Assembly (NCBI RefSeq): GCF_001748285.1
Contig: NZ_BDGT01000001.1
Span: 186,001-250,000 of the forward strand
Length of the DNA stretch: 64,000 nt
From: Thermogemmatispora onikobensis
Lineage (GTDB): Bacteria; Chloroflexota; Ktedonobacteria; Ktedonobacterales; Ktedonobacteraceae
Direction: 5' to 3'
Made by a program: the position numbers and the translations under genes. Positions within the stretch are counted from its first letter, which is position 1. Every line of letters begins with the position of its first letter. Of the stretch, positions 30,450-64,000 are shown in pieces. The notes under the pieces were generated by a model, which saw only the letters and a list, made by a program, of their open reading frames with translations, was not told where the DNA came from and searched no databases.

Positions 30450-30619
30450 ACTGCCCACCCTACCTATCCAGCCAGCATGTCTCTTTGCCAACAAGCACGA
30501 GCACCGCAAAGATCGAGGGCCGGGCAGGGCCAAAGGGAGGCCGCCCGGCCCGCCTGCTGGCACACCACTCCCGACTGTACCCAGATGGGCTAGTCCGCCT
30601 GATTTCTTCTATTGCCTTG

Positions 30620-57059: not shown

Positions 57060-57704
57060 TCACTCTTCCAGTCCAGGAACCAGACGACGCGTGCCCTCCA
57101 CAAGGATACGCAGCACCAGCTCACTCATCTCCCCTGCCGTCAGTTTCCCCTCTTCACGCTTGCTCCACTGGGCGGCACAGCCAAAGATGGCCCAGCTCAT
57201 GACCTCTGCCAACGTCTCCAGAGGCACCGGGCGCGACGACCATCGATGAGCTGAGCTACTCGCTGGAGCTTGCCACAGCCACTGAAGCAAGATGCGCGCC
57301 AGCTCTTGCTGGACCGCCCGCTCCATCAAGGGATCAAACTGCCCTCCCGCCGGTGAGCAGTACTCATGCAACCCGCCAAGGAATTCAAAGACAGCACTGA
57401 TGAGCAGGCGCAGACTCTCCAGCTGCCAGCTACCCCAGGCTGGCAGCTTGCTGGTAACAGCCTCCAGAAAGCGTTCGCGGATCACCGCATCAGCCAGGGC
57501 ATATTTATCGCTAAAATGGGCGTAGAACGTAGTACGATTAACAGTTGCCTTCTCAGCTATATCCTGAATACTGATATCGGAGAAGCTCTTCTCTTGCAAG
57601 AGTTCTAGAAACGCCTGCTGCAGCAGCCGCCGGGTACGGCGGACGCGCGGATCAACGTGTCCACCTGCTGATTCTCCCAAAGGCTGCCCTTCCGCTGTAC
57701 TCAT
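57060..57704 (-). CDS. TetR-family transcriptional regulator
   Basis: A 214-residue repressor. The HTH region is RVRRTRRLLQQAFLELLQEK, FSDISIQDIAEKATVNRTTF, YAHFSDKYALADAVI, the standard TetR_N pattern. The C-terminal ligand domain is helical and resembles the TetR_C_7-like group. ATG at 57704 follows GAGGAACAG. It is divergent from a DoxX gene, and two near-identical palindromes lie in between, so self-regulation and control of doxX are likely. Ligand unknown; regulators paired with DoxX often sense oxidative or hydrophobic compounds. Confidence 0.93.
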   Translation of the reverse strand: MSTAEGQPLGESAGGHVDPRVRRTRRLLQQAFLELLQEKSFSDISIQDIAEKATVNRTTFYAHFSDKYALADAVIRERFLEAVTSKLPAWGSWQLESLRLLISAVFEFLGGLHEYCSPAGGQFDPLMERAVQQELARILLQWLWQAPASSSAHRWSSRPVPLETLAEVMSWAIFGCAAQWSKREEGKLTAGEMSELVLRILVEGTRRLVPGLEE

Positions 57705-58467: not shown

Positions 58468-60873
58468 TCAGCGATGCAGCCCCACCTGGACCCTATACTC
58501 TGGCACCAGATGGATCGCCTGCAGCGTCACCGGCAGGGTCCCATCGCTGGCGGGCAACGGCAGGCGTTCGCGGGAGAAGTAACGCAGCACTGGTGCCTCA
58601 GCCCGTAAGGGTGTAAAGCGCAGGATCAGCTCCAGGTCCTGACCCTGGCGTAGAAAGCGCTTCAGCCCGATCACCCAGGGATACTCAGAGCCAAAGTAAT
58701 CGGCTACCAGCTGCCCATCGAGAAAGGCCTGGCCCACATCGGCCACACAATCCACATGCAGAAAGAGGTCGTGCACCCCCTCCAGAGCCTCCGCCGCCAG
58801 CCGCAGGCGCACCACCTGGGGCTCCGGCTGCTCCAGCGACCAGCGCGCTGCCCAGGGTGCGCGCTCCAAACGATAGCGCTGGAACAGCCCTGTCTGGCCA
58901 CATTCTTCCAGAGAGCCAGAGGCCACGATCGCGGCGGGCAGAGCTGGATAGCTCAGCACATCAAGCTGCGGCTCGCCCTGCCAGCAGATTCTCAGTCCCT
59001 CCTCCTCATCAGCATCCACCCAGGCCGCGCCTTTGTCCTCAGTAAGCAGCAGGTACTCGTCGCCGGCCAGCTGGACCTTCCAGCAGCGCAGGGCCTGCTC
59101 CTGAGACAAGACGAGCAGCTCCACAGTCTCGCCGGCGATGCTGGTCATCTCTAGCCGCGTCCCCAGACCCGGCTCCGGCCAGGCGTAGAGTGTCTCTTGC
59201 TCCTCCATGAACCTGCCGCCCTGGAGCGTCACAGCACGGCACCCCTCGCGTGCCAGAGCAAACTCTGCCTGGAGTCCCTCGGGAGCAAAAAAGACCATCC
59301 TCGTCCGTCCAGCGGACCGCAGGGCTGTCAGCGGCTGGGCTGTCGCATAGCGCAGGTGCAACCCGGAACCAAGCTCCAGCCCAACAGGCAAGATTGCGCT
59401 CAGCCCACGATGCAGCCGCAGACCACCCTCACGCGGCACGCGCAGTCTCCCCGCTGGCAGCAGCAGCTCCAGGCTGATCCCCTCCAGATCCTGGGCCTCG
59501 ACATGATCCTGATAGGTATTGACAAAGAGAAAGCCCTGGCCCTGACGAGCGCGCGCCGCGTAGCGCAGCAGTCCGGTCGTCTGCGGCTTCACGGCAGAGG
59601 TTCCGGGCGGCAGCACCACGGGCAAAGGAGCCAACCGACTGCCAAACTCCTCCAGGAAGAGATGAAGCAAGCGCAGACGGTGATAAGAGGCATGCAGCTG
59701 GCCATACTCTCCTAAAGGAGCCTGGAAATCATAAGAGAGACGAGGCACCGTAAACTCATGGAAGAAGCCGTGGCGACCGACAGGATTCGTGCCCCCGTGG
59801 TACATATAATAGCCCAGCCAGTTGCAGCCGCTGCCCAGAGCCACCACGGCCAGGGCCTGCGTGCACTCAGGCGGCACCTGGGGACGGTGGAGATAGGTCA
59901 TCTGGATGCCGGCCCCCAACTCACAGTAAGCATACGGATAGCGATCGACGGGATAATGGAAAGCTCCGGCCCGCCACCAGTCATTTTCAGGCTGCTGCGG
60001 CGAGCGAAAGAGAAATTCGCGGCTGGGCAAGGGATCAAAGGCGGGATCAGGCTCCCAGGGCGTAAAGGGATAGGCGGCATGCATGGGCAAAAAGCCCTCC
60101 GCAGGCACGGCAGCCCCTCCCCAGGCCGTGCAGGTGTAGAGGGGAGCCACCAGGCCCACCTCGTTGGCCAGAGCCCGCAGGCGCTCCAGATGGGCCGGCC
60201 CGTCGCTGCCTCGCGGCACCCATTCGCTGCCGGGCCGGAAGGTCAGCTCCCAGGGCGCCCCGGCATGCATATACTCGTTCTCTAGCTGCACACCGAGAAT
60301 CGGCCCCCCGTCCTGAAAAAAGAGGCCCCGCACCTGACGAGCGATCTCGGCAAAGTAGCGCCGCACATAGAACAAATAGCGCTCATCGTTCGAGCGCACG
60401 GCCACCGCCCGCCCGTAGAGCCAGTCGGGCAACCCACCGTTACGACACTCGCCATGCACAAACGGCCCTACACGTAGCAGAATCTCCATTTCCATCTCTC
60501 TGCAGAGCTGCACAAAGGCACGCAGATCGCGATTATCCGCCCAATCAAAGCACCCCTCCTCTTCTTCGACATGAATCCAGAAGACGTAGATGGAGACCAG
60601 AGTCAGACCGCCGGCGCGCATCTTCTGCAGCGCTTCACGCCAGTAACGACGCGGATAGCGCGAGGGATGGAACTCGCCCATGACAGGAATCCAGGGCTGC
60701 CCGTTGCGGAGCAGATAGCTCTGCGCCAGAGCCAGTGTCTCCCCCTGCGGCGAGCGTGCCAGGAGCCGCGGCTCCGGCAGCCCCCCCTCCGCCTCCTCCG
60801 CAGCGCGCAGATCGAGTCGATAGTAGGAACGATCATCAGCAGGTAGATGTGGCTGCAATGATGTGGCGGACAA
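58468..60873 (-). CDS. GH35 family beta-galactosidase
   Basis: An 801-residue glycoside hydrolase, retaining mechanism. The TIM barrel begins about residue 50: 'GQPWIPVMGEFHPSRYPRRYW', then RVGPFVHGECRNGGLPDWLY, GGPILGVQLENEYMHAG with the likely acid/base Glu, and AYCELGAGIQMTYLHRP with the likely nucleophile Glu. C-terminal domains are beta-rich, including a galactose-binding-like module (VHDLFLHVDCVADVGQAFLDG). No signal peptide, so the enzyme is probably cytoplasmic and acts on imported oligosaccharides. The start is TTG at 60873, after GGAGGA. It lies downstream of lacI on the same strand; the divergent binding protein gene suggests one sugar regulon. Confidence 0.92.
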   Translation of the reverse strand: MSATSLQPHLPADDRSYYRLDLRAAEEAEGGLPEPRLLARSPQGETLALAQSYLLRNGQPWIPVMGEFHPSRYPRRYWREALQKMRAGGLTLVSIYVFWIHVEEEEGCFDWADNRDLRAFVQLCREMEMEILLRVGPFVHGECRNGGLPDWLYGRAVAVRSNDERYLFYVRRYFAEIARQVRGLFFQDGGPILGVQLENEYMHAGAPWELTFRPGSEWVPRGSDGPAHLERLRALANEVGLVAPLYTCTAWGGAAVPAEGFLPMHAAYPFTPWEPDPAFDPLPSREFLFRSPQQPENDWWRAGAFHYPVDRYPYAYCELGAGIQMTYLHRPQVPPECTQALAVVALGSGCNWLGYYMYHGGTNPVGRHGFFHEFTVPRLSYDFQAPLGEYGQLHASYHRLRLLHLFLEEFGSRLAPLPVVLPPGTSAVKPQTTGLLRYAARARQGQGFLFVNTYQDHVEAQDLEGISLELLLPAGRLRVPREGGLRLHRGLSAILPVGLELGSGLHLRYATAQPLTALRSAGRTRMVFFAPEGLQAEFALAREGCRAVTLQGGRFMEEQETLYAWPEPGLGTRLEMTSIAGETVELLVLSQEQALRCWKVQLAGDEYLLLTEDKGAAWVDADEEEGLRICWQGEPQLDVLSYPALPAAIVASGSLEECGQTGLFQRYRLERAPWAARWSLEQPEPQVVRLRLAAEALEGVHDLFLHVDCVADVGQAFLDGQLVADYFGSEYPWVIGLKRFLRQGQDLELILRFTPLRAEAPVLRYFSRERLPLPASDGTLPVTLQAIHLVPEYRVQVGLHR

Positions 60874-61155: not shown

Positions 61156-62313
61156 TCAGGAAAGCGACCAGGACGAAGCGGGGGCCGCGGTGGACTGGCG
61201 TATCACCAGGGAAGGTGGGACCAGACGCAGCGGAGCCATCACCCCCTGGCGCTGAGCCGTGCCATCGCTGCTCTCACCAGGCGGCAGCGACTCGCGTCCC
61301 TGCTCCTGGCTCGCGGCCTCAATCTGGGCCAGCAGCAGCTCTGTCGCCTCCTGAGCCAGGCGCGTTTTGGGAATAGCGATGGTCGTCAGGGGCGGACGCA
61401 GATGGGCAGAGACCACAATATCGTCGAGGCCGACGATCGAGATATCCTCGGGGACACGCAGCCCGCGGTCAAGAACCAGCTCCATTGCCCCGAGGGCCAT
61501 CCAATCGTTCGTCGCGAAGATTGCCGTTGGCGGCGTCAGCTCCTGCCCGGTGCTCAACAACTGGCGCGCCGCCGCATAGCCGCTCTCCAGCGAGGAGTCT
61601 CCCAGAGCGATGCGGCCTGGAGACAGCTCCAGGCCAGCCTGCCGCAGTGTCGTGCGAAAGCCCTCTAGCCGCAGATGCTGCTGAGGCTCGTCGACAATGA
61701 CAGCAATGCGCCGGTGCCCCAGCGCCAGCAAGTGCTCGGCAGCCAGCTGTCCCGCCCGGAAGAAATCTACCGTCACCTGGGGGATGTCCGACGGCGACTC
61801 ATTTTCTTGCCAGTCGCAGAGCACAATGGGCACCCCCTGACGGAAGTAGTGCGTGATGTCAGCAATGTCCATGCTCGACCCCATGATGATGTAGCCATCA
61901 ACCCAGCGGCTCATCAGCCGCTCCATCTGCTGCCTCCCCAGAGCAAAATCACCGTGCGTGTTGCAGAAGAGGGTCTGGTAGTCGCGCTGGCGGAGAATGT
62001 TCTCGATGGCCTCCATGATCTCGGGATAGAAGGGGTTGGCAACGGTGGGCAGGATCAGGGCCACGGTAAAGGTCCGGTGCTGCGAGAGATTGCGCGCCAA
62101 CAGATTGGGCCGATACCCTAGCTCGCGGGCATAGTAGAGCACACGCTGGCGTGTGGCTTCGCTAACTTTGCCTTTGCCGCTCAGCACATTGGCAACGGTG
62201 CTTTTGGCAACCCCCGCCGCCCGCGCAATATCGTAAATCGTGACCATGTGCCCCTTCTTGACCGCCGCAGGCTGTTCTTGCGGCGGCTGCTGCTGAAAGC
62301 GAGATTCCTTCAT
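61156..62313 (-). CDS. LacI-family transcriptional regulator
   Basis: A 385-residue LacI repressor. The HTH and hinge are [20 protein letters not shown] and [16 protein letters not shown] (residues 24-60), then the sugar-binding domain: [20 protein letters not shown], '[15 protein letters not shown]', '[21 protein letters not shown]', [20 protein letters not shown] and [11 protein letters not shown]. It probably senses a galactoside or related sugar and controls the divergent ABC importer, GH35 and itself. ATG at 62313 lies 23 nt after the predicted transcription start; ATG 62247 ([10 protein letters not shown]) is an alternative. The last 40 residues are low-complexity. Operators sit just upstream. 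Confidence 0.95.
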
Positions 62314-62342: not shown

Positions 62343-62417
62343 AGTATAGAAGATGGACCGGTCCATGTCAAGTAATAGCCTTTCACCCTTGACATGGACC
62401 GGTCCATCTTCTATACT
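62343..62417. promoter_or_regulatory. Perfect 30-bp inverted repeat: mirrored promoters each with a LacI operator in the spacer
   Basis: Positions 62343-62372 and 62388-62417 are exact reverse complements around a 15-nt centre. Each arm contains TTGACA, a 17-nt spacer and TATACT: on the plus strand -35 62389-62394 and -10 62412-62417, on the minus strand -35 62371-62366 and -10 62348-62343. The spacer is almost filled by ATGGACCGGTCCAT (62353-62366 and 62394-62407), a palindrome with the central CG of LacI-family operators. One regulator can therefore shut both divergent promoters identically. Confidence 0.85.
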
Positions 62418-62425
62418 TTTCGCGT

Positions 62426-62439
62426 GTGGACCGTTCCAC
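62426..62439 (+). promoter_or_regulatory. Third, weaker LacI operator copy
   Basis: GTGGACCGTTCCAC is a degenerate version of ATGGACCGGTCCAT. Its centre is 32 bp, about three helical turns, from the plus-promoter operator, just downstream of the predicted transcription start. It may act as an auxiliary site. Confidence 0.55.
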
Positions 62440-62858
62440 TTCCCCCTTGCCGGAGCAGGAAGAGCAGTCAGCTCCCAGGAGTCCAGATAGAGGGCAGACA
62501 GGCTGGCTGGTAGGTAGAGAGTCCGGCGAGCGGCGGTCCAGGCAGGCAAGGAAAGCGGTCAGGTCGGTCGGCCAGGCAGGAAGCCGGTGCCCCGTACCAG
62601 TGAGCAGCTGGAAGGAAGAGCGCGATCCGTGAAGGGATGAACGGACGGGCGGACGAACGAATGGGCAGATGGGACTAGGCGGATGAAGAGATGACTGGGC
62701 AGGGAGATGGGAGGGAGATGGCAGACCGAGTCAACGCCGAGAGGGCGAACAAGGCAACGAACTAACGTCGCCGGGTCAATCGGTCACTCGGTTAAGTGCG
62801 TCTGCGGTGCCTTCAGCAGGCGTCAGCTCCTACAGTGCAGTCAAGGAGGAAACGAGAG
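62440..62858 (+). other. Long untranslated leader of the sugar-binding protein gene
   Basis: About 420 nt separate the predicted start (near 62424) from the ATG at 62859. The stretch is rich in GGAC/GGGCGG/GATGGG purine runs (62630-62760) and contains a 68-codon frame (62426-62632) with unnatural composition. I see no gene and no known riboswitch. Confidence 0.45.
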
Positions 62859-64000
62859 ATGAACCGCGGTCTCCTATTTTGCCATGCCAGGGGGATGGCC
62901 AAGGCCGGCCTGCTGCTGCTCCTGGCGATCAGCATCAGCAGCTATCTCGTGGCCTGTGGTGGGACGCCCGCCAGCTCGGGACCCGTCACCCTCACTTTTT
63001 GGTCCTGGGTGCCCAACCTCCAGCAAGCGATTGACCTCTTCGAGAAGAGTCACCCCAACATCAAGATTAAGTGGCAGAACGTCGGTTCGGGCGGCACGGA
63101 GTACACCAAACTGACGACGGCCCTGAAGGCTGGCTCAGGCGCTCCCGATGTGGTGCAAATCGAGTACGCGTATCTTCCCCAGTACATCCTGAGCGGGAAG
63201 CTGGTCGACCTTTCGCAATACGGGGCCAACGATGTGAAGGATCAGTTCATCCCTTGGACCTGGGCCCAGGTCACCAGCGGCGGTAAGGTGTATGCCATTC
63301 CCCAGGATACCGGCCCGATGGGCCTGCTCTACCGCGAGGATATCTTTAAGAAATATAACCTCCCCGTCCCCACCACCTGGGACCAGTACGCCCAGGAAGC
63401 CATTCAGCTGCATAAGGCCAATCCCAAGATTTATATCACTGACTTCTCTCCCAGCGATGGCCCCTGGTTCTTCTCGCTGCTCTGGCAGGCCGGTTCCCAG
63501 CCTTTCGTGGTCAATGGGACGACGCTCAAGATCCATCTGGATGACGCCGCCGCGCTTAAGGTGGCGAACTACTGGGGGAACCTGGTCAAGAGTGGGGCGG
63601 TGAGCACCGCCGCCGATTGGAACAACGACTGGTACGCTGCGCTCCAGAATGGGACCCTGGCTACGTGGATCACTGCCGCCTGGGCGCCGTCCGATCTGGA
63701 GGGATTCGCGCCAAAATCCGCCGGCCTGTGGCGTGTGGCGCCGCTGCCCCAGTGGACTGCTGGAGAGCAGGCCTCGGCCAACTGGGGCGGCTCGACCGAT
63801 GCGGTGACGACCCAATGCCAGCACCCCGCGGAGGCTGCGGAGTTCGTCAAGTGGCTCAACACGAACCCCGAGGCTGTCAAGATCTTGACCCAGAAGCTCT
63901 ACCTCTTCCCCTCTCAGAAGAGCGCTCTGCAAGATCCCAGCTTCGATACGGCTAACGCCTTCTATGGCGGCCAGCAGGTCAACCGCATCTTTGTGGAGTC
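62859..64000 (+). CDS. Sugar ABC transporter substrate-binding lipoprotein (family 1; 3' end cut by window)
   Basis: I translated 380 codons before the edge. A basic start (MNRGLLFCHARGMAKAG) and hydrophobic segment end in a lipobox (SYLVAC), followed by VTLTFWSWVPNLQQAIDLFE, the usual opening of family 1 extracellular solute-binding proteins. Later features are APDVVQIEYAYLPQYI, YAIPQDTGPMGLLYREDIFK and WGGSTDAVTTQC. ATG at 62859 follows AAGGAGG by several bases. It is the first gene of a rightward operon, presumably with permeases beyond the window, driven by the mirrored LacI-controlled promoter. With GH35 on the other side, galactoside uptake is likely. Confidence 0.93.
   Translation, partial: MNRGLLFCHARGMAKAGLLLLLAISISSYLVACGGTPASSGPVTLTFWSWVPNLQQAIDLFEKSHPNIKIKWQNVGSGGTEYTKLTTALKAGSGAPDVVQIEYAYLPQYILSGKLVDLSQYGANDVKDQFIPWTWAQVTSGGKVYAIPQDTGPMGLLYREDIFKKYNLPVPTTWDQYAQEAIQLHKANPKIYITDFSPSDGPWFFSLLWQAGSQPFVVNGTTLKIHLDDAAALKVANYWGNLVKSGAVSTAADWNNDWYAALQNGTLATWITAAWAPSDLEGFAPKSAGLWRVAPLPQWTAGEQASANWGGSTDAVTTQCQHPAEAAEFVKWLNTNPEAVKILTQKLYLFPSQKSALQDPSFDTANAFYGGQQVNRIFVE

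Follow-up and report, generated by a model that had tools for sequence, protein, structure and literature searches.

The GanR/ganSPQAB system of Bacillus subtilis, as described in the cited passages, combines a LacI-family repressor with genes for a binding protein, permeases, a beta-galactosidase and an endo-galactanase; of its GanR operators, two belong to the importer promoter and one to that of the regulator itself (PMC5472308). In the cited excerpts on local LacI-family regulons, the operators are even palindromes with a central CG, which is typical of the family, and occur as several sites per regulon. Three peaks of intersite distance are named there, one of which, at 32 bp, the authors read as two dimers binding cooperatively, and autoregulation is given for 72% of the studied regulators (PMC4052901). 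Short inverted repeats are described as sites of template switching, by which arms are homogenised and spacers inverted, the cases in the passages cited being yeast coding genes and RNA genes (PMC8604942, PMC8794818). Finally, in the portion of the report cited here, symmetrical DNA at the pseudo-symmetrical bidirectional promoters of E. coli is transcribed in divergent directions, RNA polymerases may compete for it, and one sequence engages the polymerase in two orientations (PMC12825309).

A divergent LacI-family locus and its described counterparts

The window, i.e. the whole stretch of 64,000 nucleotides that was analysed (G000:C1:186001-250000, G000 being the window genome), contains a locus with the gene content of a GanR-like galactan divergon. 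Thermogemmatispora, the source of the window, is a genus of Ktedonobacteria in the phylum Chloroflexota. The leftward genes encode a LacI-family regulator (61156-62313, minus strand; other possible start ATG at 62245-62247) and, downstream of it, a GH35 beta-galactosidase-like protein (58468-60873, minus strand). The first rightward gene encodes a sugar-binding protein (62859-64000, plus strand) and runs past the window; outside the window it is followed by two BPD_transp_1 permease genes and a GH53 endo-galactanase gene (PF07745, 361 bits). The divergent LacI switch proposed in the initial annotation is supported. Domain and structure-chain matches identify the regulator, in which a LacI-type HTH (PF00356, 61 bits) and a periplasmic-binding-protein-like core (PF13377, 128.4 bits) both score above cut-off; among NCBIfam models the best scores were obtained with RbsR, yet below every cut-off.

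The stretches retrieved from T. tikiterensis T81 (G001), T. aurantia A1-2 (G005) and one MAG (G002) have the full six-gene order. Five of the genes are present in T. carboxidivorans PM5 (G003), with extra DNA between the binding-protein and permease genes and no GH53 gene within the stretch searched, and the 4.7-kb contig of a second MAG (G004) carries lacI and the binding-protein gene only. The extra DNA in T. carboxidivorans amounts to about 8 kb (L104:9881-17849) in front of the first permease gene, and the importer operon may be interrupted there; the binding-protein match in this genome stops at residue 390 of 440.

As in the gan system, the importer promoter has two operators and the regulator promoter one. 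However, the GanR operator is AGTAAA-(4-7 nt)-TTTACT whereas that of Thermogemmatispora is TGGACCGGTCCA, both GanR sites at the importer lie upstream of the -35 element, unlike those described below, and the cited passages on the gan system describe no perfect inverted promoter pair (PMC5472308). Since its operator differs from the GanR motif, the regulator is not called GanR here. The even palindrome TGGACCGGTCCA with its central CG fits the operator rule for LacI-family regulators, and the locus shares with the local regulons several sites, a 32-bp interval and probable autoregulation, but identical promoter-operator arms or inversion of a loop find no mention in the excerpts cited (PMC4052901). 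Likewise, the single sequence of the E. coli pseudo-symmetrical promoters (PMC12825309, portion cited) contrasts with two complete promoters in Thermogemmatispora. In the literature searched, TGGACCGGTCCA as a string gave no match, none of the papers listed for the genus in combination with LacI regulators, galactan or promoters dealt with this locus, and the titles listed for divergent or bidirectional promoters with inverted repeats include no identical inverted promoter pair. The switch itself is of an ordinary, well-known kind; what sets it apart is the unusual exactness of the inverted promoter pair, accompanied by an instructive mutational trace. With considerable confidence, the locus can be read as a local, autoregulated LacI-family divergon that would serve the uptake and breakdown of galactan or galactosides, and template switching may have helped to make its arms identical.

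Predicted promoters and operators of the inverted repeat

A 15-bp loop (62373-62387) separates 62343-62372 from 62388-62417, two arms of 30 bp that are perfect inverted copies of one another; when extended to 37 bp, the identity is 92%. No other inverted repeat with arms of at least 18 bp and loops of 6-80 bp was found in the 76 kb examined. The repeat had initially been annotated as a perfect 30-bp mirror pair, and its exactness over 30 bp was borne out, though strictly speaking it is a reverse-complement repeat and not a mirror repeat. Both arms read as near-consensus promoters (TTGACA-17-TATACT), each scoring 11/12 in the promoter scan, in agreement with the two identical, oppositely facing promoters of that annotation. 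The left arm (minus strand) points towards lacI, with its -35 hexamer at 62366-62371 and its -10 hexamer at 62343-62348, and the right arm (plus strand) points towards the importer, with the corresponding hexamers at 62389-62394 and 62412-62417. The -35 hexamers of these back-to-back promoters are 17 bp apart. In total, the scan of the 2.2-kb region gave three promoter-like sites, compared with a mean of 0.3 in shuffles.

The left and right arms carry the operators O1 (62353-62366) and O2 (62394-62407), respectively, both with the sequence ATGGACCGGTCCAT. In both arms the first base of ATGGACCGGTCCAT is the last base of the -35 hexamer, so that the operators, placed inside the spacer by the initial annotation, lie there mostly but not wholly. 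A third site, O3 (62426-62439, GTGGACCGTTCCAC), is located at the predicted importer start and is conserved in the six congeners; it does lie 32 bp further on, as had been noted, but is an imperfect copy that differs from ATGGACCGGTCCAT at 3 of 14 positions, one of them in the 12-bp core. The start-to-start distances of 41 bp (O1-O2) and 32 bp (O2-O3), also given correctly for the window, amount to 3.9 and 3.05 helical turns of 10.5 bp, the former being 42 bp in three of the six congeners. The notion of a helix-phased pair agrees, for O2 and O3, with the 32-bp peak for LacI-family sites, while 41 bp is absent from the intersite peaks named in the cited excerpts (PMC4052901).

In the mechanism that these features suggest, a LacI-family dimer would bind O1 and O2, each across the -35 end of one promoter, and occupancy of the two sites would block RNA polymerase in both directions. 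O3 would add phased, probably cooperative repression on the importer side only, and a galacto-oligosaccharide would release the repressor. Equal repression of lacI and the importer, as expected in the initial annotation, is not favoured: the start-site operator is present at the importer promoter only and none was seen in the lacI leader, so that repression of the two is probably unequal. Alignments of the regulator to full-length lac repressor chains, among them 1lbg and 1efa, stop at chain residue 320-321, which we take to precede the C-terminal tetramerisation helix of E. coli LacI, and only a short tail follows LVIRQST in the regulator. In these alignments the regulator gives no sign of this helix, so that DNA looping by a tetramer of the E. 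coli type would not be expected.

The predicted importer leader (62424-62858, about 435 nt), which precedes the binding-protein gene, is long and rich in GGACGGGCGGACGAACG-like runs. It is highly variable among the congeners, with 249 variable columns of 419 in the six, and more conserved over its last 60 nt, AAGGAGG included.

Conservation of the arms and designs in relatives

Not one of the 82 columns that cover the arms and 62418-62439 varies among the six Thermogemmatispora genomes, while the fourfold sites of their lacI genes differ by 21/210 to 88/192, i.e. 10-46%. Invariant arms next to a lacI that has diverged to this extent point to long-term constraint and not to recent duplication, and the latter was rejected on these grounds. 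The loop has 6 variable columns of 15 among the congeners, T. tikiterensis being left out as its loop is inverted.

The search for the operator elsewhere in the genome and in relatives, proposed as a check in the initial annotation, gave the following for the congeners: the exact 12-bp core occurs twice per genome in all six, only as the O1/O2 pair, and a wider regulon was accordingly rejected as far as exact sites are concerned. Copies of the core with one mismatch are rarer elsewhere than matches of a reversed control pattern; they are thus regarded as background and supply no independent target that would back the motif. Similarly, the other TGGACCGTTCCA-type sites of the window genome, at C51:18153 and C25:24882, were not accepted as regulon targets in view of their contexts: one has a LacI gene on one side and an ABC ATPase gene on the other, and one falls within a coding frame. 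Exact cores in G014, G022 and G007 appear chance-like, since they are placed inside listed frames or at their borders. Of 400 Chloroflexota genomes, 7 contain the longer string TTGACATGGACCGGTCCA without mismatch, in 13 copies altogether, namely both arms in the six congeners and one lacI promoter in Ktedonobacter sp. SOSP1-85 (G024); with up to two mismatches the full list comprises 50 matches in 39 genomes. Virus contigs gave no match to the promoter-operator string.

The lacI promoter of this Ktedonobacter keeps the register of the operator and has a further copy 31 bp downstream of it, and the importer genes, at 27-34% identity to those of the window, run in the same direction as lacI. In Tengunoibacter (L062) the importer follows lacI on the same strand. 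Palindromes of the TTTATCGATAAA and TTTACCGGTAAA types begin on the last base of the -35 element at its two promoters, which stand apart. The importer promoter (L062:4071-4122) repeats the layout seen in Thermogemmatispora, one operator in the spacer and a second 32 bp further on, with other operator letters. The recognition helix reads VSQTTVAN in Tengunoibacter, VAKSTVAN in Thermogemmatispora and LAKSTVAN in the Ktedonobacter; recognition helix and operator letters thus vary in concert, in support of a pairing of the LacI protein with the operator. As evidence on the other side, the region upstream of lacI yielded no palindrome of the TGGACC type in the homologues L063, L065, L066 and L067, although in Dictyobacter (L065) palindromes of the Tengunoibacter type precede the importer gene.

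Inversion of the loop and identity of the arms

The 16-bp loop of T. tikiterensis is the exact reverse complement of that of T. aurantia: written with lacI on the left, the sequences are GGTGAATGGACTATTA and TAATAGTCCATTCACC, respectively. Compared with the five other loops, the T. tikiterensis loop has scores of 3-5 directly and of 10-16 as reverse complement, with 16/16 for T. aurantia, whereas the best of 20,000 shuffles reached 11 against the same loop. If the T. tikiterensis assembly is right, the arms must have been involved in one or more events of the inversion type. Five genomes, all but G004, were surveyed for inverted repeats (arms of at least 8 bp, loops of 5-60 bp) over collinear regions of 76-80 kb, or 16 kb in the case of G002. 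Most repeats fell outside the survey, their arms being lost in the other genome. Flips were present in 15 of the 461 ordered comparisons possible, at four distinct inverted repeats (62343, 57421, 30517 and a weaker one in T. aurantia), and in none of 1,273 length-matched random segments. As the control segments have no inverted arms, the comparison ties the flips to inverted repeats and says nothing on their rate. Judged by these four repeats, the survey shows that the inversion process is not confined to the site at 62343.

A reverse-complemented loop between unchanged perfect arms is a template-switch signature and has the form of the published cases as far as these are described in the cited passages, although here it concerns a 16-bp loop between two bacterial promoters (PMC8604942, PMC8794818). 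The flip thus probably arose by template switching in replication. An error of assembly in T. tikiterensis is improbable: perfect inverted arms can mislead short-word assemblers, but the whole 76-bp structure is shorter than one ordinary read, and the flip at 57421, inside a coding frame, is just as exact although its arms of 10 bp are too short to mislead an assembler. Even less credit is given to a phase-variable switch, in which frequent flips of the loop would swap the upstream sequences and alter the balance of lacI and importer. The loop is flipped in one of six genomes, and random orientation would give a 5:1 split or a more uneven one in 22% of cases, so that it is not improbable and six genomes cannot bound the flip rate; in the lacI tree, by which the flip might be dated, one internal branch has a support of 0.080. 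However, flips at unrelated repeats indicate that no dedicated system is needed, and the arms are the promoters themselves. Least plausible of all is a palindrome that acts mainly as a DNA cruciform or RNA hairpin and not through operators. The long arms and short loop would suit such a structure, and Rfam returned microRNA hairpin families, but with matches far below the cut-offs, and an RNA element was rejected. Furthermore, the hairpin is upstream of both predicted starts and would be transcribed by neither promoter, and the 14-bp operator is found alone at O3 and at the Ktedonobacter lacI promoter.

The closest contender is selection alone, under which the two promoters would have converged independently on one operator and consensus without any copying of arms, and to which we would give slightly less than an even chance. 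Operator or promoter hexamers fill most of the 30 positions, 62418-62439 is equally invariant with no duplicate in the left arm, and Tengunoibacter holds the same register at two separate promoters; given invariant arms, selection by itself could explain the identity. Conversely, in all six genomes both arms agree at the four positions that separate operator and -10, which differ in the Ktedonobacter, the two Tengunoibacter promoters are alike at only about 20 of 30 positions (counted by eye), and the loop inversion shows exchange involving the arms. In the preferred reading, arm identity would come partly from the same conserved design, with the operator beginning on the last -35 base, and partly, we infer, from template switching at the close inverted pair, a process able to overwrite one arm with its partner and to turn the loop round, as the loop did in the T. 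tikiterensis lineage. Where perfect identity was first attributed to selection or recent duplication, selection stands, duplication falls, and the inverted loop points to a further, mutational route. That template switching keeps both promoter-operator units identical in the long term (concerted evolution), with the T. tikiterensis loop as its trace, is a tentative and rather doubtful extension; correction of an arm by its partner was not observed in the six genomes, where the arms do not vary and correction would not be visible. The flip record offers a clean case in which to ask whether replication errors, beyond selection, keep paired promoters alike, and, as a flip swaps the sequences upstream of each promoter, whether upstream sequence matters.

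The inverted repeat at 57421-57448 (10-bp arms, 8-bp loop) lies inside a TetR-like frame (57060-57704, minus strand). Once reverse-complemented, its loop in the window genome is identical to that of T. carboxidivorans, with which T. aurantia agrees; the flip was therefore probably on the window's own lineage, where it would have changed the coding sequence. At 30517-30551, a repeat with 9-bp arms has a 17-bp loop that is mostly reversed, with partial identity, in T. carboxidivorans and T. aurantia.
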